This document shows positions 1 through 12,653 of a stretch of 12,653 bases of DNA, piece after piece. The stretch spans positions 1 to 12,653 of the forward strand of contig JADGJG010000776.1 of NCBI GenBank assembly GCA_027596195.1, in the 5' to 3' direction. How positions within the stretch are numbered: position 1 is the first letter of the stretch; the number at the start of each line of letters is the position of its first letter. The notes beneath the pieces are model-generated. The model made no database searches, was not told where the DNA came from, and worked only from the letters and a program-made list of their open reading frames with translations. The position numbers and the translations under genes were made by a program. This DNA is from Podochytrium sp. JEL0797. Taxonomy: Eukaryota > Chytridiomycota > Chytridiomycetes > Chytridiales > Chytriomycetaceae.

Positions 1-36
1 CCCCCCCCCCCCCATCCCCCCCCCCCCCCCCCCTCC
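1..36. repeat. Poly-C low-complexity tract
   Basis: An almost pure C run (13 C, then AT, then about 19 C) opens the window. The opposite strand is a G run able to form G-quadruplexes. It may be a natural tract or a contig-edge artefact. It does not match a TTAGGG-type telomere repeat. No gene is visible before position 104. Confidence 0.8.
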
Positions 37-103
37 TCCATGAACATAAATTTCGTTTAATGGCGTACAATAAAAGTGTTCCAATCCAACCCGATTCTCC
101 AGC

Positions 104-293
104 ATGATTTTCGATCGCTCTCTTGGTCATCAGTGTGATAAGTGCGATGTCTTGTGTCGCGATGAGGAGGCAGTCCCAGAATCGGTTGTGCGTCTCAAAA
201 AGTGCCGACAATGTCTCTCCAAGCACTACTGTTCCCCAACATCACCGCCTGAAAAGCTGGCCATAAGGTCATGTGTCGACCACGCATTTTTGT
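104..293 (+). pseudogene. MYND-A copy 1, truncated MYND zinc-finger relic
   Basis: This is a broken copy of the small MYND protein found intact at 1022-1447. It begins with the same ATG and residues (MIFDRSLGHQCDKC) and keeps both early CxxC pairs, the second in KKCRQC. After HYCSP it loses about 8 bases relative to the other copies, which shifts the frame. In the restored frame the finger's tryptophan codon is TGA, followed by KAGHKVMCRP. Similarity then stops, and the DNA beyond belongs to the MYND-B relic on the other strand. MYND fingers bind zinc and usually mediate protein-protein contacts, and this copy cannot make a whole finger. Weak similarity to the other copies extends slightly upstream of the ATG, so part of the 5' flank was copied too. 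Confidence 0.75.
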
Positions 294-918
294 GACCCTC
301 CTTCTATCCCTTCTTTTGGCAAATTCGGGAGCAGTAATAGACAGACTCGCATTGTTGGCCTTTTTGGAGAGTAGATTCGACACGGGAGATCTCGCAGACA
401 TTGATGCAAAAGTGGCCATGCGCTGATTCAGCTCCCTTTCAACCAAGATCCTTGAGAATAATCTGAGACCAATAACCAACTGCTTCAGAAACCAGAGTCT
501 CAGCTCCACGGGGCCAAACAGAGTCTCGATTCTCGGAGAGTTGGTTGAATGCGGCCAAGGCAGAATAAAGTCTCCTTGGAATGGGGTTGCAGAGCGTCTC
601 GCTTAGAGCGTATGAAATCAGCATGAAGATGGCATGGTGGTATGGGTGCTCGTCTTTTGAGGATGCGCGCGCCTTGATGAAAGTCGCGTCCGACTCGGAC
701 ACGGGGACCTTTACGAACTCCAAACCGCTGACCCAAAAACTGTCCCACAGACACTCGAGATTTTGAGAACGCTTGAGATTGCAGGGGTTGAGTCCCGGTG
801 CAAGTCGCTGCAGCTGTCGGATTGCATGGTCACGCAACTTACGTTTAGCAGTGGGTACCTGTATCCTCTCGAGATTGCCACGACGATGTGATTGGCACCG
901 ATCGGATCCACATTTCAA
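288..918 (-). pseudogene. MYND-B, 5'-truncated protein with degenerate C-terminal MYND finger
   Basis: One minus-strand frame reads from about 918 down to 288, interrupted by TGA (439-441) and TAG (304-306). The body has protein-like composition (for example ECLWDSFWVSGLEFVKVPVS and EHPYHHAIFMLISYAL) but matches no family I recognise. After the first stop comes a MYND-like finger with VYYCSRICQKKG, then TAG where the conserved Trp belongs, then KEGHK. One upstream cysteine of the finger appears replaced by Gly. The last Cys returns if the A-run near 291 is one base longer. No ATG lies in frame at the 5' end, where a TAA sits just upstream. A C-terminal finger on a longer body differs from MYND-A, so I treat it as a separate family. 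Confidence 0.6.
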
Positions 919-1021
919 CGTGAATTATTTGCGACTGGTTCGGATCCGCGTCAGAGAAACTCCCGGCTACAATGACACTGCCATGTCCTCCAATAACAAA
1001 TACTTATATATTTAATGAGAC

Positions 1022-1447
1022 TCAAAAGAACGATCTCGAGAATTCAATTTCCAAATCTTCCCAGTTCCAACGCTCCTCATTTAACATGACACGTGTGAGA
1101 TTCCAGTGCTTACTCAAATACGACACGATCCACTTGATGCAATCTCCCGAAGAAGTCGGCGCGGACTCGCGAATCTCGTATATGTTGCCGTTCATGGAGG
1201 AATATTTCGCGTTTTGGAGTCCGTGAATGCGGACCAAGTCGAACTCCACAAGCGACGTGGGAGGTCGACACATGGCTTTGTGACCCGCTTTCCAGGCGGT
1301 GCGTTGGCATGCGGGGGAGCAGTAGTACTTTGAGAGACATTGCCGGCACTTTTTGAGAAGAACAACAGATTCCGAGCCACCGTGCTCCTCGCGGGTCAAG
1401 ACACCACAATTGTCACACTGATGCCCGGGAGACCGATTGAAAATCAT
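1022..1447 (-). CDS. MYND-A copy 2, small MYND zinc-finger protein (open copy)
   Basis: A 141-residue protein that starts at MIFNRSPGHQCDNC, the same ATG used by copy 1. The reading frame stays open upstream to a TAG but has no ATG there, so this start is preferred. Residues 10-55 form a MYND finger: CDNC, then KKCRQC, YYCSPACQ, W, H and a final Cys in HKAMC. The remaining ~85 residues (CRPPTSLVEFDLVRIHGLQ through ERWNWEDLE) form a tail shared with copy 3 that I do not recognise. The finger suggests protein-protein binding, possibly in transcription. It is the only one of three copies without a break. A GGGCCC at 1497-1502 marks where similarity to copy 3 begins, and similarity runs past the stop to about 963. 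No clear TATA was seen upstream. Confidence 0.7.
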   Translation of the reverse strand: MIFNRSPGHQCDNCGVLTREEHGGSESVVLLKKCRQCLSKYYCSPACQRTAWKAGHKAMCRPPTSLVEFDLVRIHGLQNAKYSSMNGNIYEIRESAPTSSGDCIKWIVSYLSKHWNLTRVMLNEERWNWEDLEIEFSRSFF

Positions 1448-1719
1448 GTCGCGGAATTGGGGACACTCGGCATTCTTTCGCGTTTCGGAAAAGAATGGGC
1501 CCAACTGCGTCGAATTCGAATCACCCCCTCCAACTCTGCGCGTCTTTTCTACGCTTTTCCCGCTCCGCTACGCTCCGCATCGCGTCACGTCGCACGCCAT
1601 AGTACATCTCCACCCCAAATTTCACAAAAATGAATCTTTATAAGAAATCTATTATACAGGGCAAAAAGAATGATGGCAGACAAGCACGCATACAAAAAGA
1701 AAAACAAAACAAGTAGTCA
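1448..1719. other. Intergenic: MYND-A copy 2 upstream region and bZIP1 3' end
   Basis: This 272-base stretch holds the 5' flank of MYND-A copy 2, reading leftward, and the 3' flank of bZIP1. At 1559-1598 it carries a CpG-rich run of repeated GCTCCGC/TACGCTCC words. That run resembles in style, but not in exact sequence, the repeats in the long intron near 11,900. No further gene is visible. Confidence 0.5.
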
Positions 1720-2376
1720 TTAACAGTTTTGAGCCAACAAAGCACGGTGAGACTCAGCCAACTGCTTCTCAAGCATGGCGACCCTTGTCTTGAGATCCGA
1801 CTCGCGTTGAACAAAAGACCGCTGGTTGTTTTCCAAGACGGCAATGCGCGTGTGGAGCGAAGCGCGTTCTTGTTCGAGCGTGTCGGTTTTGGACTCAAGA
1901 GATTCAATGAGGGCGGCCTTGCGGGCACGCGACTTTCTCGCGGCGTCCGTGTTTTTCTCACGACGAGTTGGTTTTGGTTTTTCGACTTTGTGGAGGGCGG
2001 CGTCGGTTTTTGTGTCAGAGAGGGCGGGGGGCGAGAAGGAAGACTCGTTGGGGACCACGATGCAGGTCGCGTCGCTGAAGTCGGACGAAAAGGCGCTTTG
2101 TTGTTGCGGAAGCGAAAACGAAGACGCCGCCGCGGGAAGCCCTGCAAGACCACTCAGCCACAGCGACAAGTCGTCTTGGCCAGGCGAAGAGAGAAGATCG
2201 CAGAGAAGCGGAGAGTCGCCAAACAGCCACGCGTCGCTGACGGACCCAACAGAGCTGCTGAGACAACCGAGAGGTGAAGTGAAGTCCGTTTGGATGGGCC
2301 CAGGTGGGGAGGAGTATGAAGGCGTGGGAAAGAGTGCAATGGGAGAAGCAGCGGGTTTCGTCTTGACGTAGCACAT
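1720..2376 (-). CDS. bZIP transcription factor 1 (Gcn4/Jun-like)
   Basis: A 218-residue basic-leucine-zipper protein without introns. The start MCYVKTKP is preferred over an upstream in-frame ATG because bZIP3 begins the same way and a TATA-like box lies 69 bases before it. Residues 1-130 are rich in Ser, Pro and acidic/aromatic patches (DDLSLWLSGL), as in an activation region. The basic region carries KNTDAARKSRARK with the N-x2-AA-x2-SR signature (Asn142). A coiled coil follows, with leucine heptads from about 158 to 210 (SLESKTDTLEQERASLHTRI onward). The protein should bind DNA as a dimer in the nucleus at TGACTCA- or TGACGTCA-type sites. Two TGACTC motifs lie in its own upstream region. 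Its closest relative in the window is bZIP3, which shares the ENN-RSF-QRE zipper block. Confidence 0.93.
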   Translation of the reverse strand: MCYVKTKPAASPIALFPTPSYSSPPGPIQTDFTSPLGCLSSSVGSVSDAWLFGDSPLLCDLLSSPGQDDLSLWLSGLAGLPAAASSFSLPQQQSAFSSDFSDATCIVVPNESSFSPPALSDTKTDAALHKVEKPKPTRREKNTDAARKSRARKAALIESLESKTDTLEQERASLHTRIAVLENNQRSFVQRESDLKTRVAMLEKQLAESHRALLAQNC

Positions 2377-2423
2377 TTGTTTTGTTTTGTTGTGATGGAT
2401 CAGCAAGGGGGCGGGTTGGGGGG

Positions 2424-2452
2424 GAGTCACGACGAGGTGGCCCGCTTTTATC
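2424..2452 (-). promoter_or_regulatory. bZIP1 core promoter: TATA-like box plus shared element
   Basis: Read on the minus strand, GATAAAAG (2445-2452) is followed by CCTCGTCGTGACTC, then the leader. bZIP3 has TATAAAAG and ACGTCGTCGTGAATC in the same order and at nearly the same spacing (62 versus 69 bases from box to ATG). The conserved CGTCGTGA word sits where transcription would start. It overlaps TGACTC here and TGAATCA in bZIP3, both close to the Gcn4/AP-1 site. Confidence 0.55.
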
Positions 2453-2487
2453 CGTTTCGACAAAAACGAAAATTTTCAGCGTTTCAA

Positions 2488-2775
2488 TCACCGAGTTCGT
2501 TTTCGAGTCATTGTTACTCGAAAACGAGACGAAGGCTGACAAATTTGATCCAAAAGATGCTGCCTCCCTTGCACGTGGTGGAAAATCGCCGCAACCAACG
2601 GGGGTATCAAATCGAGAATGCTGTCCACCTTTGGCTTGAATTTGAACCTTTCTCGGCCCTGAGCTGATGATTGCACAATTTCTTTCAGAGAGAGGATTCC
2701 GTCCTTTTTACCTTCAATATATTTTGCGATGCGCATCTCGATGCTGACGACCGCGAAACTGAACCTTGACGCCAT
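2488..2775 (-). CDS. Hypothetical 95-residue protein
   Basis: An open frame from a true ATG (2773-2775) to a stop at 2488, upstream of bZIP1 and on the same strand. The first 85 residues have ordinary protein composition, with a mixed charged and hydrophobic pattern (KYIEGKKDGILSLKEIVQ, then ILDLIPPLVAAIFHHVQG). The last ten are basic and coincide with a DNA inverted repeat, so the true 3' end is doubtful. The hydrophobic stretch slightly recalls an F-box start, but too weakly to name. It could be the first exon of a longer gene or a relic. It would leave very little room for a bZIP1 promoter. Confidence 0.3.
   Translation of the reverse strand: MASRFSFAVVSIEMRIAKYIEGKKDGILSLKEIVQSSAQGRERFKFKPKVDSILDLIPPLVAAIFHHVQGRQHLLDQICQPSSRFRVTMTRKRTR
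2497..2527. repeat. Perfect 12-bp inverted repeat upstream of bZIP1
   Basis: TCGTTTTCGAGT (2497-2508) and ACTCGAAAACGA (2516-2527) are exact reverse complements around a 7-base spacer. The left arm plus spacer contains GAGTCA, that is TGACTC on the bZIP1 strand. The dyad lies about 120-150 bases upstream of the bZIP1 ATG and 45 bases beyond its TATA-like box, a plausible site for a dimeric regulator. Confidence 0.7.
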
Positions 2776-2846
2776 GAATATTACGCAGTATTATACGAGA
2801 GAAGAGGCAGATAGAATTAGGGATGTCCCGCAGTTTCAGTCAAAAC

Positions 2847-3352
2847 GGGCCCGTCCTTTTCCGAAACTCGCGAGAAGACAGAGTTTCCACGATTCAGCAA
2901 CTTTATTTTCGATCGCCTTCCCGGCCATCAGTGTGACGAGTGTGCTGTGTTGTGTCGCGACGAAGAGGGCGGCCCAGAATCGGTCGTGCGGCTCAAAAAG
3001 TGCCGCCAATGTCTCTCCAAGCACTACTGCTCCCCCAAATGCCAACGCACCGACTTGAAAGCGGGCCACAAATTTATGTGTCGCCCTCCAACTTCTCTGA
3101 TTGAGTTCGACTTGGTTTGCGCTCACGGACTTCAAAATGCGAAATATTCCCCAATGAACGGAAACATTTACGAGATTCGCGGGCCCGCGCCAACTTCTTC
3201 GGGAGATTGCCTCAAGTGGATTGTGTCGTATTTGGGTGGGGGGATGAGGTAGTTGTGAAGCACATGAATCTCACGCGTGTCATGTTCAAGGAGGAGCGTT
3301 GGAACTGGGAAGCTTTGGAGTGAATTCTCGAGATAGTTCTTTTGAGTCACAT
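2847..3352 (+). pseudogene. MYND-A copy 3, broken MYND zinc-finger gene
   Basis: Similarity to copy 2 starts at GGGCCC (2847) and covers the whole gene. The start ATG of copies 1 and 2 is changed here (the residues read NFIFDR), and no other ATG lies in frame after a TAG just upstream. The finger is complete: CDEC, KKCRQC, HYCSPKCQ, H and KFMC, but its Trp is Leu (RTDLKAGH). After WIVSYL a 20-base insertion (about 3235-3254) shifts the frame and produces stops. The expected tail, MNLTRVMFKEERWNWEALE, continues in the next frame. An alternative is a spliced upstream exon supplying a start plus a very short intron at the insertion, which I consider less likely. Similarity to copy 2 continues into the 3' flank to about 3405. 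Confidence 0.7.
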
Positions 3353-3502
3353 ATAATATAAAATATGCGTGTTGTTATTGGAGGCCTTGGCAGAACGTTC
3401 ATTGCGATACCAGAAACTCTGTGCTCTACTACGTTTTTGATAATTACACGCGATCAAAAACACATAATCAGATCAAAATAAGGAAAATTAGGTAGTGTAT
3501 TT
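3353..3502. other. Intergenic: duplicated 3' flank of MYND-A copy 3
   Basis: The first ~50 bases match the 3' flank of copy 2, including GTTATTGGAGG followed by a CTTGGCAG-like word. The rest is AT-rich and shows no gene. Confidence 0.5.
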
Positions 3503-3889
3503 TTACACAATGTACGGGTATGATAGAAACAAAGTAAAACAAAACAAGGCCATGAACCACAGAATCCATTCGATTCCTTGCAGACCTTGTGTATATGCTT
3601 CTGCGATACTCTCCTTTCGCTTGAGTTCTTCTTTTCGACAGTATCTTCCGTGGTGATGGTGGTGGTTGTTGTGGTTCTTGTGGATTGATGAAGAGCGCAG
3701 TGGCAATCGGCTCGAATCGAGCAAGGTTTCGGCACTGTGAGGATCAGACGAAGTGCATTGGATTCCGACCAGGGGTTGGATCTTGGTTGTGTTGAGGGCG
3801 GGTAACTCGTCTTTGCAAAGAATCGGGCGGTTTGCTGGGAGAGCGTTCGCGCCGTCGTTGGTTGGCAGTAGTGGTTCAGTCGACGGCAT
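3503..3889 (-). CDS. Hypothetical C-terminal single-pass membrane protein
   Basis: A 128-residue frame starting MPSTEPLLPTNDG. The ATG at 3889 is preferred to one at 3925 because of its AAAAATGCC context. Residues 1-75 are polar and probably disordered. A histidine-rich patch (HKNHNNHHHHHGR) follows, then a basic stretch (RKEELKRKE). The last 25 residues contain one strongly hydrophobic segment (IEWILWFMALFCFTLFL) ending SYPYIV at the stop. This layout fits a tail-anchored protein or a small subunit with a cytosolic N-terminus. I recognise no family, and the His run could be low complexity or metal binding. It stands alone between MYND-A copy 3 and bZIP2, on the bZIP strand. Confidence 0.5.
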   Translation of the reverse strand: MPSTEPLLPTNDGANALPANRPILCKDELPALNTTKIQPLVGIQCTSSDPHSAETLLDSSRLPLRSSSIHKNHNNHHHHHGRYCRKEELKRKESIAEAYTQGLQGIEWILWFMALFCFTLFLSYPYIV

Positions 3890-4072
3890 TTTTTCTCGAC
3901 GCTTAGAAATTATGAAGGAAATCAAATCGAGTTGGCGGCTTTTGCTTGATTCTTTAGAAATGCTGATATGTGAAATGACGGAATGCCAAGGCGACCCAGG
4001 AGGTCGTGCTTATCAATAAACAATGTATTTTTCTTTCTTCATTCTTCAACATAATACCAACTTTATTTAATA

Positions 4073-4585
4073 CTACAAACAAGCCTTCACCGCATTCTGA
4101 GACTGCACCAACTCCTCCTCCAAAAACGCAATCCGATGCAACAAATCAGCCTCCCGCTGCGCAAAAGACGCCACATTGTTTTCTAAAACGGCCACACGCA
4201 CATCGAGGTGCGCTTTTTCGGCCTCGAGACGCGCGGTGCCTGATTCGAGGAGCTCGACTTGCTCCGATTTGCGTTCACGCGATTTTCGCACAGTGAGAGT
4301 GTTTTGCGTGCGTCTTTTGATGCGTTTATCGAGGTGGGTGGAGATTGGGGACGGGAGGGTTGGTGGGTCTGGGAGGGGGGATGTGGAGGTGGCAGGGGAT
4401 TCTAGATTCCACTCAAATGGGGGAAGTGAGCTGAAGCAGGATGGGGACAGTGAGGTGGCTGTAATAGAAGGTAGTGTTTCACTCGAGGTGTCGAACCATG
4501 ACATCAATTCCGGGTCGATGGGGGGCCCGCGTTCGGATTGAACCTCGATAGATATCTGCCCTTGGTTTGGCGATGGGAAGAGCAT
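4073..4585 (-). CDS. bZIP transcription factor 2 (divergent basic region)
   Basis: A 170-residue bZIP protein if translation starts at MLFPSPNQ. The same frame stays open to another ATG at 4726 (217 residues). I prefer the shorter form because an AAATATATTTA element lies about 32-42 bases upstream of its ATG and the longer start leaves only 74 bases to the next gene. An acidic motif (PELMSWFDTSSETLP) resembles DWMNWLETISS of bZIP3, so both may share an activation patch. The basic region reads QNTLTVRKSRERK. The two alanines of the usual N-x2-AA-x2-SR signature are Thr-Val, which may alter or weaken DNA recognition. The zipper (VELLESGTARLEAEKAHLDV onward) keeps ENN and FAQREADL, as in bZIP3. 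It could act as a dimer partner or inhibitor of its paralogs. Confidence 0.88.
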   Translation of the reverse strand: MLFPSPNQGQISIEVQSERGPPIDPELMSWFDTSSETLPSITATSLSPSCFSSLPPFEWNLESPATSTSPLPDPPTLPSPISTHLDKRIKRRTQNTLTVRKSRERKSEQVELLESGTARLEAEKAHLDVRVAVLENNVASFAQREADLLHRIAFLEEELVQSQNAVKACL

Positions 4586-4800
4586 GTTGTTCCTTTTTCC
4601 GAATAAGTCTTTAACCCTAAATATATTTCTGGATTGGGGGAGTTCAACACATCGAATTTCAAACTCGATCCGGCGGCTGAACCCTTGCTTGTTTCTTTCT
4701 GTTTCCGGATTTCTAATCTCACTCATCAATGCGAATGCGAATGCACAAATTATACAGGTATATTTTGCCTCTGATGAGCAGATAACAATAAGAAAACGAA

Positions 4801-5541
4801 TCACAATCCATTCTGCGACAACAAAGCGCGATGCGACTGCGTCAACTGCTCCTCCAAAAACGCCACCCTCTGCTTCAAATCCACCTCCCGCTGCGCAAAC
4901 GACCTCTCATTGTTCTCCAACACCGCAATCCGCGTGGCCAACCGCGCTTTATCGTTCTCCAACATGTCCGATTTAGATTCCAACGAGTCAATGAGGGCGG
5001 CTTTGCGTGCGCGCGACTTTCTCGCCGCGTCCGTGTTCTTGGTGCGGCGCACGTTGCCGTCGCTGTCAAGGGAGTCGGAACGCGAGGTGCGCTTTCGGAG
5101 GTTGACGGGGGCCATGGCGGGGATGTACATGGCAGTAGGTGGGGCCGCGAGTGTGTTATATTCTGGGGATCGCACGGCAGTGGTTTCCGTCATGGTAGGT
5201 GACACAACGGTTCCCATTTCCATGGGTGGCGCCATTGTGGTTGTGTCGGCGGGGAACGAGGAGATGGTTTCGAGCCAGTTCATCCAATCGCCGTTGATAC
5301 GCGGCACGGAGGCGTTGGTTTCTTGGATATCATATTCGAGGGGGGAGGAGGTGGCATCCGGGGTGTTTTGTTGTTGCTGTTGTTGGCCTTGGAACCAGTC
5401 TTCGTTGAGGTTGTTGGCGAGCCAAGATTCGGTGGAGGCGAGGGCTGCCATGGTAACATCCTTGACAGGAGCGACAGTTGCTTGAGCGATGGGAGCAACG
5501 ACTTCGGCGATTGCGGAGGACTTGACTTTGACGTAACACAT
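4801..5541 (-). CDS. bZIP transcription factor 3 (Gcn4/Jun-like)
   Basis: A 246-residue intact bZIP protein, start MCYVKVKSS, matching bZIP1 and placed 62 bases after a clear TATAAAAG. The N-terminal half has Ala/Val-rich sequence, a seven-Gln run followed by NTPD, and an aromatic-acidic patch (GDWMNWLETISSF) likely to activate transcription. The basic region is KNTDAARKSRARK (Asn169) with a full signature. The zipper runs from about 185 to 238 and ends SHRALLSQNGL, almost as in bZIP1. It is a nuclear DNA-binding dimer, probably able to pair with bZIP1. It lies in tandem between bZIP2 (215 bases from its shorter start) and bZIP4. The 450-base gap upstream is the largest between neighbours in the array and holds a 16-bp palindrome and several TGA-TCA-like words. 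Confidence 0.93.
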   Translation of the reverse strand: MCYVKVKSSAIAEVVAPIAQATVAPVKDVTMAALASTESWLANNLNEDWFQGQQQQQQNTPDATSSPLEYDIQETNASVPRINGDWMNWLETISSFPADTTTMAPPMEMGTVVSPTMTETTAVRSPEYNTLAAPPTAMYIPAMAPVNLRKRTSRSDSLDSDGNVRRTKNTDAARKSRARKAALIDSLESKSDMLENDKARLATRIAVLENNERSFAQREVDLKQRVAFLEEQLTQSHRALLSQNGL

Positions 5542-5573
5542 TTTTGAGAGTTGGGTGTAACCGGGGTTGGGAT

Positions 5574-5610
5574 GTGGGGGTGATTCACGACGACGTCCTT
5601 CGCTTTTATA
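5574..5610 (-). promoter_or_regulatory. bZIP3 core promoter: TATA box and GACGTC/TGAATCA element
   Basis: On the minus strand TATAAAAG (5603-5610) is followed by CGAAGGACGTCGTCGTGAATCACCC. This contains the palindrome GACGTC, the core of CRE-type bZIP sites, and TGAATCA, one mismatch from the AP-1/Gcn4 site. The order and spacing match the bZIP1 promoter. Confidence 0.65.
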
Positions 5611-5768
5611 CAATTCCGCCCTGCACCCCCCAGAAAAATCTTTTTTTTCCTGCGGCCGAGGTTCAAACCACCAAACACAATTATCGAACAACGAGGCCCC
5701 GAAATCACTCGCAATGAATCATTTTCACTCGAGTTGACTGACGGACGAATGACATTTATAAGCAAATA

Positions 5769-5784
5769 TTCATTTGCAAATGAA
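5769..5784. repeat. Perfect 16-bp palindrome TTCATTTGCAAATGAA
   Basis: The sequence is its own reverse complement and sits 228 bases upstream of the bZIP3 ATG. A partial direct repeat of its CAAAT word precedes it. A symmetric 16-mer in non-coding DNA is a plausible dimer-binding site; its binding protein is unknown. Confidence 0.6.
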
Positions 5785-5844
5785 ATTGGGGGCTTGAAAC
5801 GTGCGAAAAGGGTTCTTTCAAGCTTGGCACTGACAAAAACGCCT

Positions 5845-5866
5845 AGAGTGGCTTTCGAGCCACTCT
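5845..5866. other. Hairpin with TTCG loop
   Basis: AGAGTGGCT, TTCG, AGCCACTCT form a perfect 9-bp stem with a UUCG-type tetraloop. It lies between the end of bZIP4 and the start of bZIP3. A second small dyad (TGCACAGTGCA, 5866-5876) follows at once. It could be a structured 3' end of the bZIP4 transcript or a DNA-binding site. There is no U-run as in bacterial terminators. Confidence 0.55.
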
Positions 5867-5991
5867 GCACAGTGCATGGTGGCTGAATAATAACATATCG
5901 TGGGCCCAAGCCCCAAGCGTGGGCCAGGTATTATCGGCACGCATTCCCAATAGAGAAAATAATATTATTATACACACGCGCTACGACGTTT

Positions 5992-6606
5992 TTACATTCC
6001 CAAAAACGCCTTATAGTTATCCGCCAGCTGTTGCTCCAATAAATTCACCCTCTCTTTCAACATCATCTCCATCTGCTCAAACGTTCTCGCATTCCTTCCA
6101 ACGAAACAATCCGCTCTCCAAGCCCTACCTTCTCCTCCTCGAGCGCCACCACTTTCTGTTCCAGTGTCACCATGTGATCGAGTTTGCGCGCTCGAGACCG
6201 GCGAGCTGCTTCGGTGTTTTTCTGGCGGCGTGTGAGGTGTTGTGTCTCGTCGTCGCTGTCGAGCGGGCTTCGCACTCGGATGGTTCTTCTTTTCCGGGAG
6301 GTGGTCGCACTACTGCTTGAGTGGGAGGGTGGGTCGATGGAAGTGGCGGTTTCGTTGCTTTCGATGGAGGTGTTGGAATCGAGGGTGAAGTTACGAGTTG
6401 GATTCCTGTGGTGGTTGTTTGTTCATTTGGGACATTCGCTACGCAACGGACAAGCTCTCGTTGATTTACCATGATGCGTTCCAGTCACTTTGGTGCATTT
6501 GAGGCTGAAGCAGAGACATGTCGATTGTGTTGATGGGTGGTTGCTGCTGGGAATACGCCAGTTGATCGTTCGTGAACATTTTCGTGTCCGATTTGTCGGG
6601 GCACAT
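5992..6606 (-). CDS. bZIP transcription factor 4 (Gcn4-like), two exons, one-base frame break
   Basis: Exon 1 (6606-6470) starts MCPDKSDTKMFTNDQ and ends at GCATCATG before GTAAAT. A 64-nt intron (6469-6406) ends ACCACAG, and exon 2 runs 6405-5992. Splicing joins QSDWNAS to WNPTRNFTLDSN and keeps the frame into an acidic Ser/Thr-rich region, then KNTEAARRSRARK. This is the closest basic region here to yeast Gcn4. The zipper begins MVTLEQKVVALEEEKVGL. After SLEG the frame changes. One extra A near 6091-6093 (GGAAAT instead of GGAAT) restores NARTFEQMEMMLKERV and the end LLEQQLADNYKAFLGM, matching its paralogs position by position (183 residues). As written, the zipper is cut short. Either this is a recent lesion or, more likely, a homopolymer error in the sequence. 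Confidence 0.82.
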
Positions 6607-6759
6607 CTCCCTTCCCCTTCCAATTTTTTTTAATTTTTGAGCAAATGTGACTAAACTTGGCAACAAGAGTGATGGCGCAATCGCGCAACCCCATGGCAAG
6701 CACTTATGGCGCCGCGGGTGAAACGCGCCTTCCCAGCTGGTATATTCACAAAATCTTCA
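6607..6759. other. Intergenic upstream of bZIP4
   Basis: On the minus strand an A-rich stretch (CAAAAATTAAAAAAAATTGG, about 6621-6640) lies 15-35 bases before the bZIP4 ATG and may serve as its core promoter. The rest shows weak coding-like sequence on the minus strand that may belong to the remnant further right. Confidence 0.35.
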
Positions 6760-7888
6760 TTATTCGCCATCCACATATTTACATCTACATCCGTGTAACT
6801 GCGCGCGATTGCCTTGACGCCAAGTTTCTGCCGTGAGTGAAACCTTTGTGCGGTCGTGAAGATTTTGCGAGCAGATGTGTTCCATTCGTTTGGCAACCGT
6901 GAGAATTTGAATCAGAGTTTCTTCACCGTTTCCCTTTTGTGGTCCTTGTTCCGTCGCGGTTTTCTTGATTAGTAAAAGGGCGCCAGGAAAAAGACGGAAG
7001 AGGCGAGGAAAACGAACCCAAAACAAGGAGCAAAATTCATGCACATACGAAGGTCTATTTGGAGAATTCTGAAGAGATGAGATAGCGAGAAGCTGATCGC
7101 TAAACACCAGTGCTGGAGGCAGTAACAGAATATTCGTGAGCGGGGCCAGGATGGTTGGAGAAACCGGCGGCGATCCCGAAGCGAGAGGAATCTCAAACAC
7201 GGAGTTGCGGTTCTGAACGTGGTCGCGATTCTTCAACAGCTGCGCGAGCACACGTTGGCGCATTCATCCAGGAGTTTGGAGCGGATATAAAGACCTCGGA
7301 TATTGTATCGCTTCTACTTGGTGATATCGGTGCAGAGGGATTGTCGTTCGAACATGTCCATCAGCTCGTCAACAAGAAAGAAGTTTCTCAGGGAATTCAA
7401 CGACTTCAACGCGTTGCGGCACCATTCCGTGTCGGGTTGTCCAGTTTCCTTCCGCTCGCGTTTCTACTTGGGTAGGGGAAGGGAAGAGACGAAGGCAAGT
7501 GTTTGATCAATGCCGACTAAGGGGCCTGCACGCTGGTTCCGGCAGTATCGACACAGAACGCGGTCAAATCGCCAAATGTTGTTGATGACGGTGCGCAGAT
7601 TCGAGTTCTGCTTCTTGAGCAATGGTCACAATTCTTGTCGCTGGCAGGTGCACTCTTTCGCTTGCGTTCACGCGTGCTGGTCGTGGTAGTGTGTGGGTGG
7701 CTGGAGCTCGCGGAAGAGAAAGGGCCGGTGTATTCATCGTTGCTGGGTTGCATATTTTCGAAATCGCGTGTGGATTTGGACTCCATTCAATTCATTGCAT
7801 GCATGCATGCGAGTCGAGAATCGCTTACCTGACAGGCTCCCTTTAGCGGCGGCGGCGGAAAGGCAATTGCCAGAGATTGAATCGTCAT
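6760..7888 (-). pseudogene. Degenerate minus-strand gene, possibly a regulator
   Basis: A convincing first exon lies at 7888-7829: ATG, MTIQSLAIAFPPPPLKGACQ, then a strong donor CAG|GTAAGCG, with an AT-rich run 20-40 bases upstream of the ATG. An acceptor (CAACCCAG) at 7743 is possible. Beyond it comes a Ser/Thr-rich stretch, then TRERKRKSAPASDKNCDHC. The protein-like sequence then changes frame to LKKQNSNLRTVINNIWRFD, later SLRNFFLVDELMDMFERQ, and again to a 150-residue open stretch (7263-6760) with long hydrophobic segments. Several stops and frame changes interrupt it. A basic Cys-containing cluster near the N-terminus recalls Zn2Cys6 fungal regulators, but the cysteine spacing is not complete, so I do not name it. 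It could be a gene with sequence errors or a pseudogene. Confidence 0.35.
7797..7810. repeat. GCATGC tandem palindrome
   Basis: GCATGCATGCATGC is a 14-base self-complementary run inside the first intron proposed for the minus-strand gene. It is a simple alternating repeat and no function is evident. Confidence 0.5.
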
Positions 7889-7993
7889 TAGCAAAAGGGA
7901 ATTCAAATATTTTTTTAATTATTTTTTTTGCAGTCTAAAGCTGCCTCAGATAAGAATTTGTGACGGAAGCTGAATAAAGGGGCAGATACGTTT

Positions 7994-8763
7994 TTGATTT
8001 GTGAGGCTCGATTCCACAGGAGCTTGGAAAGCCGAGCCAACTTCAATTCATATATTTGTATGAGTGCAATCTGTCAGGGGATATTCCTCATGAACTTGGT
8101 GAGCTCGAGAGTTTGGAGGACTTGGGTAATGTGCTCTTGTCCGGAGAGATGCCAGCAGTGTTGGCGACGTTGGCGCGTCTTGAATGCTGCGATTTGAGTG
8201 GATGTCCAGGGTTGACGATTGGGTTTGAATTTCATGAAGGAGTTGAATTTTATGGCCCCAACGACAATAAAGAGCATTCCTTCCAAACTAGTAGTAGTTG
8301 CGTTGGTGTTGAGTTGGATTCATCCAAAGGATGTCTGGAAGCTTTGCGGTCTCTCGCGTTCCTTCAGAGACCGCCTTTCGACCAAGTCGTTTGCGTTTCT
8401 CAACATCCGCCGCTTCGTCCCCGCACCCGACCTCACGTGCTTCGAAAGGTCCGACACCTTCTACCTTCTGAATTTTAAAAAAATTGGAAATCTCTCAATC
8501 AGAAGGGCATCTCTGGGTTGATTCCACCAGAGTGGGGTGGCATGACCAAGTTTAATAGGCTGGTTCAATTCCTCGGGAGCTCGGAAATTTGAGTCAACTT
8601 GAATTCTTGGGGCTTGAGATTTGGAGAGATTCCGCGTGAGCTCGGTGGGCTCTAGACGTTGAAGGTGTTGGATTGGTCGGGAAACACACACTTGTCTGGT
8701 GAGGTGCCGGCGGTGTTGGCAACTTTGGCGCATCTGTTTTTTCCCCCCTTTTCGAAGAAGTAG
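7994..8763 (+). pseudogene. F-box / plant-type LRR gene relics
   Basis: Two relics lie head to tail. The first (7994-8235) is leucine-rich repeats of the LSGxIPxELGxLxxL type. It reads DL, TGA (8002-8004), GSIPQELGKPSQLQFIYL and then CNLSGDIPHELGELESLEDL. The second (about 8236-8763) opens with an F-box-like segment (IPSKLVVVALVLSWIHPKDV, then WKLCGLSRSFRDRLSTKSFA). It then needs one extra A in the A7 run at 8477-8483 to continue into WKSLNQKGISGLIPPEWGG and further repeats (IPRELGNLSQLEFLGL, LSGEVPAVLATLAHL) spread over two frames with stops. F-box proteins recruit substrates to SCF ubiquitin ligases and LRRs bind the substrate. This locus cannot make an intact protein. The second relic runs into the cobU leader. 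Confidence 0.7.
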
Positions 8764-8773
8764 CAAAAAAACG

Positions 8774-9501
8774 ATGCCATCTTCGCGCATCATTCTCTGC
8801 CTCGGCGGTGCGCGATCCGGCAAATCAACGTTCGCCGAGAAACTCGCCGTGTCGACCAACCTGCCCCTCCTCTACATTGCCACTGCCAAACGCAGCGACG
8901 CTGAGATGACACACCGAATCGAACAGGTTTTTATTTGCCTTTTGACCAACACTCGCCCACCGTGATCACTCTCCCAGCACATCAAAGACCGCGCCAACCA
9001 ACCCTGGACCACAATCGAATGCCCCATCGACCTCTCCCTCGTCTCCCTCGACTCTGCCGGCGTGATCCTCGTGGACTGCGCGACCGTGTGGCTTGCGAAC
9101 GTGATGGGACGCATCGGGTGGCCCAAAGACGAGGAAGTGAATGCCGAAGCTGTGGCGTGGGCGCAGAAAGTGGACGACACGGCGCGTACGGAGATGAAGG
9201 CGTTTTTGGATAGGTGTGAGAGGGAAGGGAAGGTGGTCGTGATTGTAGCGAATGAGGTTGGGTTGGGGATTTGTCCTGAGGGAAAGGTGTCGCGGTATTG
9301 TGAGTATTTCTCTTGGCGTTTTGGTTTGGTGTTGGTTTGGTTTGACTGATTTTTGTTGCAGATCGCGATACGTTGGGAAGGATTAACCAGGACATTGGGA
9401 GACGCGCTGAACGCGTGTACATGATGATTGCGGGGTGTGGCGTGGATATCAAGCGTTTGTCGGAGGAGGCGACGCTGAAACGGTTCGAATACGCGAAATG
9501 A
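8774..9501 (+). CDS. cobU: Adenosylcobinamide kinase / adenosylcobinamide-phosphate guanylyltransferase, three exons
   Basis: Exons 8774-8926, 8978-9299 and 9362-9501 encode 204 residues (bacterial CobU/CobP is about 180). Introns of 51 nt (CAG|GTTTTT to CTCCCAG) and 62 nt (ATT|GTGAGT to TTGTTGCAG, with TTGACTGAT before it) keep the frame exactly. Visible motifs are the P-loop GGARSGKS (residues 11-18), YIATA, and R-I-E-Q-H at 48-52. His52 probably corresponds to the guanylylated His of Salmonella CobU. Walker B-like VILVDC, ANEVGLGICPEGKVSRY and YRDTLGRINQ with AERVYMMIAG follow. The enzyme phosphorylates adenosylcobinamide and transfers GMP to it, giving AdoCbi-GDP, the substrate of CobS. 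The next gene, cobS, faces it 150 bases away. The start follows a TAG-containing leader with AAAAACG before ATG. All key residues are present, so it should be active. Confidence 0.95.
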
Positions 9502-9651
9502 GCTCTTGAATTTCGTTTTTCGATGTATGAGATGCACTGCGAGATTCATGCAATAGAAGACAATAAGAAACCTATATTAACCATTGATTTATGCGAGAAA
9601 TGTCCCCCTTCCCTTCATAATGCATCCTCACGACTTAATCAAAGAATTCCT
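9502..9651. other. Convergent 3' intergenic region between cobU and cobS
   Basis: These 150 bases separate the two facing stop codons. They contain an AT-rich stretch with AATAGA and ACAATAAGAAAC words that could serve for 3'-end formation of cobU. No gene is visible. Confidence 0.5.
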
Positions 9652-10641
9652 TTATAATGAGATACACATCCGTAAGTTTCCAAAAACCCTGATCCAATTG
9701 ACACCCAACACCAAATACGTGGCACACTCGACAATCTGATTCGTCGCGCCCAAACAGTCACCAATAACGCCACCAACCACGCGGTTAATATACCGCCCCA
9801 TCGTGACGGTAATGTAACAACACACGAGCCACAACATGACCATCTCCACCACAAACTGCTGCACACTCAGTGCCCCGATCCACAACGAACCCGCCACAAT
9901 CGCACCCGCACTCGCCGTCGCAAACACGACCCGCGCGTTCGTGACCAAAAACAAAACTCTTTTCCGACGGCAGACGCGTTTTCAACGTACTTGTACCGAT
10001 GCAGGAGGTACGTGTTGCACCATCTTCCGAGGACGTGGCCGGAAATGAGGATACCACCGATGCGCGCGAGTTTGAACACGTGAGTCATGATGATGGGCAG
10101 GCGCGGGTGAATCACGGCATACGACGAATCGAGGGCACCCAAGGGGGTGGTTTCGAGGAGGTACGAAACGGCAGCGAGTTTGGTGAGTTGGAACATGGCG
10201 AGGCCGAGGCCCGCAAATACGCCAATGCAAGAGTCTCGCATGATGCGCAGGATGGAGGTTCGTGTCCAACCTCCTCCAAAGCCATCACACATGTCGGCGA
10301 GTCCGTCTTCATGGAATGCACCCGTGAACCGAATGGTAGCGAGGGAGTACCACACGGTGGGGATCAGAGTTGACCCAGGGAAAAGATAATACCCGAGGGA
10401 GAAGAACGCAAAGCCGACGAGACCCACAATCACGCCAATGACAGGAAAGTAGGCTGTGGACAGCGACAGCCAGTACATAGAGTGGTTGACCCACTTTGGC
10501 ACAGACACACGCGTAAAGAACATGATTCCGCTGAGGAACGCGTGGGTCTCCTGGACGGCGAAGGAGACGCTCTTTTCCTCTTTGGGGACAATGAGGGGCG
10601 TGGAAGGGTCTGGGGTGGGTTCGGCGGTGCTTCTGGGCCAT
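9652..10641 (-). CDS. cobS: Adenosylcobinamide-GDP ribazoletransferase (cobalamin-5'-phosphate synthase)
   Basis: A multi-pass membrane enzyme that joins AdoCbi-GDP with alpha-ribazole (phosphate) to form cobalamin(-5'-phosphate). Family motifs are clear: FLSGIMFFTRVSVP at the N-terminus, FHEDGLADMCDGFGGG (the acidic Mg-binding motif), ILRIMRDSCIGVFAG, and near the end GGVIGDCLGATNQIVECA. The middle lies in one frame (10523-9960) and the C-terminal 100 residues in another. One more T in the T-run at 9953-9956 (VGKEF to LFLVTNARVV) joins them. The coding frame extends upstream of MFFTR through VSFAVQETHAFLSG. The ATG at 10639-10641 (MAQ) is one base out of frame with it, so the true start is uncertain. 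Restored length is about 329 residues, longer than the usual ~250 mainly at the N-terminus and loops. No intron was found. Confidence 0.9.
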
Positions 10642-10692
10642 GGCTTGCGTGGACAGAAAAATAAAATAAAAGTAGATCAACAGATAAAGACG
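10642..10692. promoter_or_regulatory. Putative 51-bp bidirectional promoter (cobS / ABCD4-like)
   Basis: Only 51 bases separate the two candidate ATGs of the divergent genes. The segment has an AT-rich core (AAAAATAAAATAAAAG, 10660-10675) that reads as a TATA-like run on either strand. If the cobS start is really at 10523 the shared region would be about 169 bases. The arrangement would couple expression of the two genes. Confidence 0.4.
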
Positions 10693-11840
10693 ATGCGGGT
10701 CGATGGGATCTTCTTTGCGCGGCTGTGGCGGCTTCTCTAGCTGGCCTCCGGTCCCCACCAGGCATCGAGCGACATATCCAAGGCACCCGTTCCGTTCCAC
10801 CTCTGTTCTCCACAGCGACTCTTTAGCTCGGTAAAGCGCATTGTTTCCTTGATCGTAGCTCTGTGTGCGTTAGCTGAAGTGCTTGCGTATCTGGGTGAGC
10901 CTTTGTGATCACTTCGGAGTAAGAAGAAGGACTGATTCTTTCCTCAGCCGGAACCCGCGTATCGCAAATCTACCCATTCTCGCCCGCCGCGACTTTCCCG
11001 CATTCACCACCCTGATTGTCACCTGCTTCACGCTCTATCTCACTTTCGCTGCCCTCACCGTGATCAAGGAGTGGTCCAGAGGCTGTCTGGCCCCGGTTGT
11101 TCGCGAACGTCTGACCCGTCTGATGCACGACAAGTACGTCAAGCAGCACAATCTGTACGGAATCGCAAGCATTTGTCTCAACTCCGACGGGACTAAACTC
11201 TCTGATCTCGAGCGCCCGAGTTTCGAGTCCTTGCGTGAGGAATCATCAAATGATGAGGAATCCTCCCCGCTCCTCTTCCCCTCACCCGACAAACCCGCCC
11301 ACCAAAACCGGATCGACAACCCCGACCAAACCATCACCCAAGACATTTCCCTCTTTTCCGAAATGACGTCCCAAATCACCATCAAAATTCCCTCCTTTCG
11401 CCTATCCTCATTTTCCTATTCTTTTTCTCGTCTTGGTGGATCTGTCGCACGGCCATGAATCCCGTCGTCCCCGCCGTTTATGCGAAAGAAAAACTCGAGG
11501 GTGATTTCCGATTCATTCATGTCCATACGCGTGTGCAAGCGGAACGCATTGCCTTCCTCCACGCCGAACGCGTCGAACGCGACCGGTTGGACACTCTTCT
11601 CGATTCCGTCGTGGACGCGAGTTTTGTCGTGCTAGGTCGCAACGTGGTGCTTCATTTTCTTACTGAATCGACTGTGTTCCTCGCGAGTGTGTTGACGTAT
11701 GGCGTTGTTGCCATTCCGATTTTCGATGGCACATTCGATGGCAAGACGGAGGCGGAGATTAGTGGGATTGTGGCCAAGAATTTGTTTGTGTGTTTGTATT
11801 TGATTCATCAGTTGACTGTGTTGACGCAGTTGTCGAGGGA

Positions 11841-12129
11841 GTTGAGTATTTTTTGATTGAGTGGAGCCTGGAGTGCAGCGAGGCCTTGGCGCGAAGCGTC
11901 GAAATGCCAGGAGTGAATGAGCGAAGAGAGCGAGAAGCGTCGATACGAAGCGAGGCCTCGACGCAAAGCGTCGAATGAACGGGATTGAGCAAAGAAATCG
12001 AGCCGAAGCGTCGATAACCCAGATGAGCGAAGCAAATAGAATACGCGGTTCGCGCCTGGAACGAAGAAAATCCCCCCTTCTGCACGCCTTTCCCCCACAC
12101 ATACTGACCCCAATTTCTTTTTTGAACAG
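11841..12129 (+). other. Long repeat-bearing intron of the ABCD4-like gene
   Basis: The donor GA|GTTGAG and acceptor TTTGAACAG give a 289-nt intron. Splicing here joins QLSRE to LTQLSGYTTRIG, which aligns without gaps to the animal protein; a donor five bases later would break the frame. The other introns in the window are 51-64 nt, so this one has been enlarged, mainly by the repeat at 11877-12021. Confidence 0.7.
11877..12021 (+). repeat. Two-copy ~72-bp tandem repeat in intron
   Basis: AGCGAGGCCT, then a short variable step and CGCRAAGCGTCGAA, occurs at 11877 and again at 11949, 72 bases apart. Within the units the word (G/A)AAGCGTCGA appears four times (11893, 11934, 11965, 12005) at 41-, 31- and 40-base steps. 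The copies have diverged. The composition is purine-rich and CpG-rich compared with the surrounding exons. Confidence 0.7.
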
Positions 12130-12515
12130 ATTAACTCAACTCTCGGGATACACGACGCGTATCGGCATGCTCCTCGAATCCTGCGATACCCTCTCCACCC
12201 TCCACCCACACTCCTTCCCACCCAACCACACCCTCACCACATCCACACTCATCCTTAAAGTCACGAATCTCGTCCCGACCCCACCCAACAGGATTGCCCC
12301 TGCGTCCTCCCAACCCCTCACCTTCGCCATCCACACACACCAACACACAATCATCCAAGGACCATCAGGATCCGGAAAATCCTCACTGCTGCGCCATATT
12401 GCGGGGATCTGGCCCGATCCGAAAGATGCCGTGGTGGAATGGAACGACGCGACGGATCTGTTGGACCCAAGGAGTGTGATGGTTGTTGCGCAGGAGCCGA
12501 TCGTGGTGTTTGTGG

Positions 12516-12653
12516 AGTGGGGTAGAGGAGGGTGTGGAGTTGGCGGTGTGGAGGGAGGTGATGGGGTGCGGGTGTACGGTTGTGGCTGTGAGGTATGGGT
12601 GTGGGTGTGAGAGGGATGGGGGGGAGGTGGAGGGGTTGTTTGGGCGGAAGGTT
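12516..12653 (+). other. G/T-rich window end
   Basis: The last ~140 bases are strongly G and T rich on the plus strand. One frame (12517 onward) reads as the end of an ABC nucleotide-binding domain; the other frames are low complexity. Whether a further exon follows cannot be seen. Confidence 0.45.

Follow-up and report, generated by a model that had tools for sequence, protein, structure and literature searches.

The genome of the chytrid Podochytrium sp. JEL0797 carries, on a contig of 12,653 bp (C752, analysed over its whole length and called the window here), genes for the corrinoid enzymes CobU and CobS beside a gene for an ABCD4-type half transporter, which raises the question of whether a fungus has linked the finishing of cobinamide to cobalamin transport, and whether such a system still works. 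The assembly is a draft of 24.4 Mb in 995 contigs, and a second copy of the gene segment lies on contig C253; this sister copy served as the reference for lesions in the window. We think it fairly probable that the window and C253 hold diverged copies of one cluster, the window copy having CobU intact and both CobS and ABCD4 broken, and that this cluster would have brought corrinoids into the cell and finished cobinamide, was assembled within fungi, and is decaying here. The sister copy and related fungi make a stronger case for salvage linked to transport than the window does by itself.

The three genes of the window are convergent and then divergent (Table 1), and since the same order is repeated on C253, this layout is not the chance join of one contig. 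The original prediction had described cobU, cobS and an ABCD4-like gene as adjacent in this arrangement and in a spliced eukaryotic setting, which agrees with the strands, with the order on C253 and with the GT-AG introns present in CobU and ABCD4; likewise, its gene identities are confirmed by family cut-offs and by matches to solved structures. It was correct on genes and layout and silent on the damage to the CobS and ABCD4 frames, and it overlooked a fourth, CBA1-like gene which is found only in the sister copy.

Window CobU is interrupted by two introns of 51 and 62 bp, both GT-AG, and its product, 100% identical to the NCBI protein HDU98_010832, scores 169.7 bits for PF02283 (cut-off 27) and 172.8 for the NCBIfam equivalog NF004469 (cut-off 161). 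The best match among solved structures is the adenosylcobinamide kinase 1c9k (E 3.2e-30), which we take to be the Salmonella enzyme. The P-loop, GGARSGKS at residue 11, is kept, and H52, presumably the histidine that carries GMP, is invariant across 15 aligned sequences. Judging from these features, window CobU is a member of the adenosylcobinamide kinase/guanylyltransferase family with a predicted activity on cobinamide. In the CobU of C253, 11 bp are missing over the donor site of the first intron, and NCBI has modelled this gene (P0122) with another splice, again with 204 residues.

The CobS gene of the window is recognized by PF02654 (112 bits, cut-off 23.2), and fungal CobS retains motifs that are invariant in the alignment; by sequence, the window gene is a damaged member of the adenosylcobinamide-GDP ribazoletransferase family. 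Compared with C253, four short pieces are missing from it: 2 bp directly behind the start codon, 1 bp each near 9956 and 9677, and 8 bp near 9650, the last two losses affecting the tail only. The frameshift near 9956 hits the motif SAxGK[EQH][FY], which all but one of the 17 fungal CobS compared have, the exception being the NCBI model of the window gene (HDU98_010833). That model implies a 32-base intron near 9956 which would rescue the frame, a solution judged unlikely because it would remove the motif kept by the 16 other fungal sequences. In C253, two deletions (46 and 88 bp), a duplication of 87 bp and three stop codons disrupt CobS.

In the third gene, PF06472 is above its cut-off in two exons, and the introns measure 53 and 289 bp. 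The frame of the window copy is closed by a TAG at 10738 (codon 16), exon 2 has 893 bp against 955 in C253 (62 bp net shorter), and C253 residues 509-592, among them the ABC signature at 565 and Walker B at 585, are without a counterpart; the match ends at the contig end, three residues before the end of the sister protein. The C253 gene (P0241), with two introns, is open through 641 residues, and its single frame takes in Walker A (463), the signature and Walker B, which is not so in the window. Among solved structures, P0241 matches ABCD4 at 1.4e-60, a plant ABCD1-type protein at 2.4e-44, ABCD3 at 6.1e-26 and ABCD1 at 9e-17, and its score for the peroxisomal type (NCBIfam TIGR00954) is 163 against 918.9. 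The third gene is closer to ABCD4 than to ABCD1-3, and lysosomal location and cobalamin transport are predicted for its product. Its second intron (window 11841-12129; 289 bp, 278 in C253) is long beside the 51-62 bp of the other introns measured, and imperfect repeats can be seen in it by eye. Second, more distant ABCD4-like proteins are encoded on other contigs of the same species in Siphonaria (P0249) and Chytriomyces sp. MP71 (P0250), a possible second ABCD4 lineage in Chytridiales.

In a whole-genome search with the Pfam families for CobU and CobS, each was found at two places, the window and C253. Alignment of the two cob regions gives four pieces of more than 400 bp, with identities of 84.6 to 91.7%, and much of the upstream bZIP block is also duplicated on C253 (L010, C253:18748-23406), its longest piece being 89.8% identical; the gap separating cob region and bZIP block is about 1 kb in the window and about 6 kb in C253. 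Silent divergence between the copies is 0.12-0.25, with a ratio of replacing to silent change (dN/dS) of 0.11-0.23, for CobU exons 1-2, CobS and ABCD4 with stop codons excluded, and in CobU exon 3 silent differences affect 9 and replacing differences 3 of 45 codons. Such ratios suggest that constraint acted on both copies for the greater part of the time since they separated, and that their decay is likely recent; some of the small lesions could be sequence errors. Decay of the two copies appears to be complementary, since the window has a whole CobU, C253 has a whole ABCD4 and a whole CBA1-like gene, and neither has an undamaged CobS.

The CBA1-like protein is encoded in the extra stretch of C253 by a long open frame (13918-15252) next to CobU, with an upstream exon judged by eye. 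CBA1 is an algal protein of B12 uptake and cobalamin acquisition, and CBA1-like sequences from five fungi are reported in the accessible part of PMC10828217. The block E-x7-FFNxE given there occurs at the published spacing in all four sequences that we compared, namely those of C253, two of contig C56 and the tail of a Siphonaria protein; for each of them, none of 2000 shuffles contained it. Three of the four have the aromatic-F-E-x11-D block and one has PxVxW, a pattern that also arose in 43 of 2000 shuffles. The last 19 residues of the C253 protein are hydrophobic, which would fit an anchor. The gene lies beside CobU in C253 and is absent from the window; in Siphonaria the ABCD4 model P0243 (912 residues) ends in CBA1-like sequence behind ABCD4, and this model is probably two neighbouring genes run together. 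The two CBA1-like genes of C56 lie on opposite strands (L038, about 6540-9998), near a histidine-rich open frame which by eye has the look of a zinc transporter.

Linkage in other fungi was scored from protein searches for CobU, CobS and ABCD4 with 120 matches listed in each, the best 120 of 1141 for CobS and the best 120 of 3505 for CobU; it rests on locus tags, or on equal contig size taken as one contig, rather than on gene maps, and the species are not independent. Named fungi account for 17 of the listed CobS matches and 13 of the listed CobU matches, the former from chytrids and their kin plus Allomyces and Catenaria, which we take to be Blastocladiomycota; no Chytriomyces CobS was among the 120 of 1141 listed. 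At least two of CobU, CobS and ABCD4 could be located in 11 species, and in six of these at least two lie on one contig. Podochytrium has them linked twice, on the window contig and on C253. CobS 007876 and CobU 007878 are linked in Phlyctochytrium bullatum, CobU 002744 and CobS 002745 in P. planicorne, and ABCD4 g03138 and CobU g03140 in Chytriomyces confervae. Chytriomyces sp. MP71 has CobU and ABCD4 on a contig of 40,219 bp, and Siphonaria sp. JEL0065 has CobS and ABCD4 on one of 114,124 bp. Summed over the five linked relatives, about 0.016 linked pairs would be expected by chance, assuming a 20 Mb genome and with the same dependence among species. The original prediction had proposed a comparison of gene order in relatives, and on this scoring linkage is partial, a pair of genes sharing a contig in just over half of the scored species.

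The trees address how these genes came together. For CobS, 17 fungal, 7 database and 38 bacterial sequences were used (40 of 80 bacterial loci, 38 after a length filter), and for CobU 13 fungal sequences, 22 of the 107 listed matches without a fungal name, and 16 from the 47 loci with a CobU. The 17 fungal CobS and one unnamed metagenome sequence form one group (98 in the SH-like approximate likelihood ratio test, SH-aLRT), next to which lie another metagenome sequence, two of Chlorobi type and a long-branched one of Pseudomonadota. Fungal CobU also form one group (100), nested in a broader group of database sequences, Dictyobacter among them. The bacterial sampling of both trees was limited to close matches. 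Of the 80 bacterial CobS loci, fetched with flanks of up to 4 kb, 47 include a CobU match, and in 37 of these the two genes share a strand. Since the fungal genes are convergent and their bacterial neighbours in the trees differ, their grouping was likely made within fungi. We suggest that fungi probably acquired CobU and CobS from separate bacterial lineages and united them afterwards, and that the pair was not inherited as a bacterial operon.

Regarding the remainder of the pathway, genes for MetH, methylmalonyl-CoA mutase and adenosyltransferase, which the original prediction had named as genes to look for, are all present in the genome. A MetE-type gene is present as well, so methionine need not depend on B12. 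A match to MMACHC was weak (25.2 bits, 28.5 with its neighbours; cut-off 27), and further ABC genes were found. The proposed search for LMBD1 led to one gene of the LMBR1 family, on contig C862, whose subfamily was not settled by any library; one motif makes it look like LMBD2.

Based on the families concerned, we hypothesize that a CBA1-like surface protein, encoded only in the sister copy, would capture a corrinoid outside the cell and that, after endocytosis, ABCD4 would carry it from the lysosome to the cytosol. There, CobU would phosphorylate and guanylylate cobinamide, and CobS would couple the GDP-cobinamide to alpha-ribazole or its phosphate. Alpha-ribazole can be used directly by CobS, and this ligand or its phosphate would need an outside source because no CobT was found. 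A formula matching alpha-ribazole is reported from marine organic matter in the accessible part of PMC9296465. The product would supply the adenosyltransferase, MetH and methylmalonyl-CoA mutase. That chytrids built, within the eukaryotic line, a cluster for capture by CBA1, lysosomal export by ABCD4, and finishing by CobU and CobS with an imported lower ligand is plausible, if somewhat short of probable, and we offer this cluster of chytrids as a testable proposal. A working pathway in JEL0797 itself is doubtful.

Several observations weigh against such a system. The two CobS places found with the Pfam family are both damaged, so no intact CobS was found in the assembly, and with window ABCD4 also broken, the claim that the organism can finish corrinoids is not upheld for these copies. 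The window CobS model is under the NCBIfam equivalog cut-offs (TIGR00317, 65.6 against 110; NF001277, 153.5 against 273), and Siphonaria CobS is likewise under them, with 74.9 for TIGR00317. Genome searches of the kind that recovered exons of CobU, CobS, MetH, mutase and adenosyltransferase gave no candidate for CobT, which the original prediction had also listed, or for CbiZ, and its idea that foreign corrinoids are remodelled finds no support; CobT may be too diverged, or missing from the draft. Only one of the three CBA1 residue blocks is common to all four CBA1-like sequences, and the protein was named by neither Pfam, NCBIfam nor solved-structure matches, the one Pfam match with E<0.1 being to an unrelated family and under its cut-off. 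In Siphonaria, CobU lies on another contig than CobS and ABCD4, and among the matches listed five of the 11 scored species are unlinked (Dinochytrium, Nowakowskiella JEL0407, Cladochytrium, Obelidium and Rhizoclosmatium JEL0117), in which fragmented drafts could hide linkage.

The damage may be read otherwise, as errors of assembly or sequencing in genes that are whole in the living fungus, with a pathway that works apart from the missing CobT. The draft is in many contigs, several CobS lesions of the window are of only 1-2 bp, and the low dN/dS in all three genes speaks for long constraint; however, the deletions, duplication and stops of C253 CobS, together with the stop, the loss of about 60 bp from exon 2 and the missing 509-592 stretch in window ABCD4, are larger lesions that speak against it, and we consider this explanation rather unlikely. 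We consider it unlikely, too, that the genes are adjacent through chance and drift and without functional meaning. Linkage in six of 11 species, non-independent as they are, is far above the rough random expectation, and the CBA1-like gene adjoins the cluster both in C253 and in Siphonaria, against which stand the five species without any pair on one contig and the orders and pairings that vary among species.

The absence of candidates for CobT and CbiZ leaves the textbook route incomplete, and CobU and CobS might accordingly serve another step, for instance one in which imported cobalamin has its nucleotide loop repaired or turned over; with CobU above its equivalog cut-off, its P-loop kept and its histidine invariant, and the invariant motifs retained in CobS, this seems quite improbable. 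Bacterial contamination, or a bacterial operon recently transferred, would be in keeping with families of bacterial type. Gene structure, orientation, neighbours and trees all speak against it: CobU has introns, both copies lie beside fungal bZIP genes, the sequences fall inside fungal clades and the order is convergent and without CobT, all of which makes it hardly credible. A cluster assembled within fungi and now decaying in JEL0797 is the reading that we retain as fairly probable.

The coordinates are collected in Table 1. The interval between the start codons of CobS and ABCD4 is possibly a shared promoter region. Upstream, positions 1-7760 of the window hold three bZIP genes on the minus strand (1720-2475, 4073-4906 and 4801-5718), and two MYND-finger frames were found at 1022-1567 (minus) and 2821-3252 (plus). 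In the gap between bZIP block and CobU, positions 8005-8478 match a leucine-rich repeat with a score slightly below the Pfam cut-off (19.7 against 20.6), and C253 has a weak glycosyl hydrolase 18 match on the minus strand at 3684-4502 (L008; 27.7 bits, cut-off 29.6).

Table 1. Features of the cob region, in window positions.
Feature	Position	Strand	Description
CobU	8774..9501	+	exons 8774-8926, 8978-9299, 9362-9501; 204 residues; frame intact
CobS	9650..10641	-	family match; frame broken relative to the sister copy
CobS/ABCD4 start-codon interval	10642..10692	.	51 bp
ABCD4-type half transporter	10693..12653	+	exons 10693-10894, 10948-11840, 12130 to contig end; broken

Parts of this picture are already known, namely the use of B12 by fungi, CobS in algae and Sphaeroforma, and CBA1-like sequences in fungi. 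The Salmonella cobUST operon is a bacterial nucleotide-loop cluster with cobU and cobS, and the fungal genes resemble such clusters in that CobU and CobS stand close together. In contrast to the mostly co-directional bacterial genes, those of the window are convergent and intron-bearing, no CobT was found in the genome, and the nearest bacterial sequences differ for each gene. The nucleotide-loop enzymes COBT, COBS and COBC have been described in Chlamydomonas and other algae, with a CobS of Sphaeroforma arctica as the nearest non-algal match (PMC4850488). A eukaryotic CobS is the likeness here; CobU is named 0 times and no linkage is described in the accessible part of that paper, whereas Podochytrium has CobU and no CobT was found in it. 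MetH, methylmalonyl-CoA mutase and adenosyltransferase are reported from non-Dikarya fungi including Chytridiales, the same B12-using enzymes as in the Podochytrium genome, and the main text of that paper, as accessible, has 0 occurrences of CobU, CobS, cobinamide, ABCD4 and LMBD1 (PMC8085122). ABCD4 is described as a lysosomal cobalamin transporter in the accessible part of PMC8113721, and it gives the best solved matches of the sister protein; the Podochytrium gene differs in being fungal, linked to CobU and CobS and broken in the window, and the location and substrate of its product are predicted ones. Among the matches listed by word searches of the open full-text literature, with most subscription papers outside it, none was seen to describe CobU or CobS from fungi, or a linkage of these genes with ABCD4 or CBA1.

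The long-standing view was that fungi do not use B12, and early-branching fungi have lately been treated as users of the finished vitamin. The presence of CobU and CobS in chytrids suggests that some fungi may be able to finish corrinoids that are incomplete, and their part in the exchange of B12 in fresh waters would then be a different one. The linkage also offers a genetic hint on the partner proteins of CBA1, a point left open in the accessible part of PMC10828217. If chytrids did build a cluster that covers this whole route, some fungi would be finishers of cobalamin, ABCD4 would be indicated as the partner of CBA1, and Podochytrium would show a cluster caught in complementary decay after duplication; both corrinoid finishing and the CBA1 partnership are testable in cultured chytrids.

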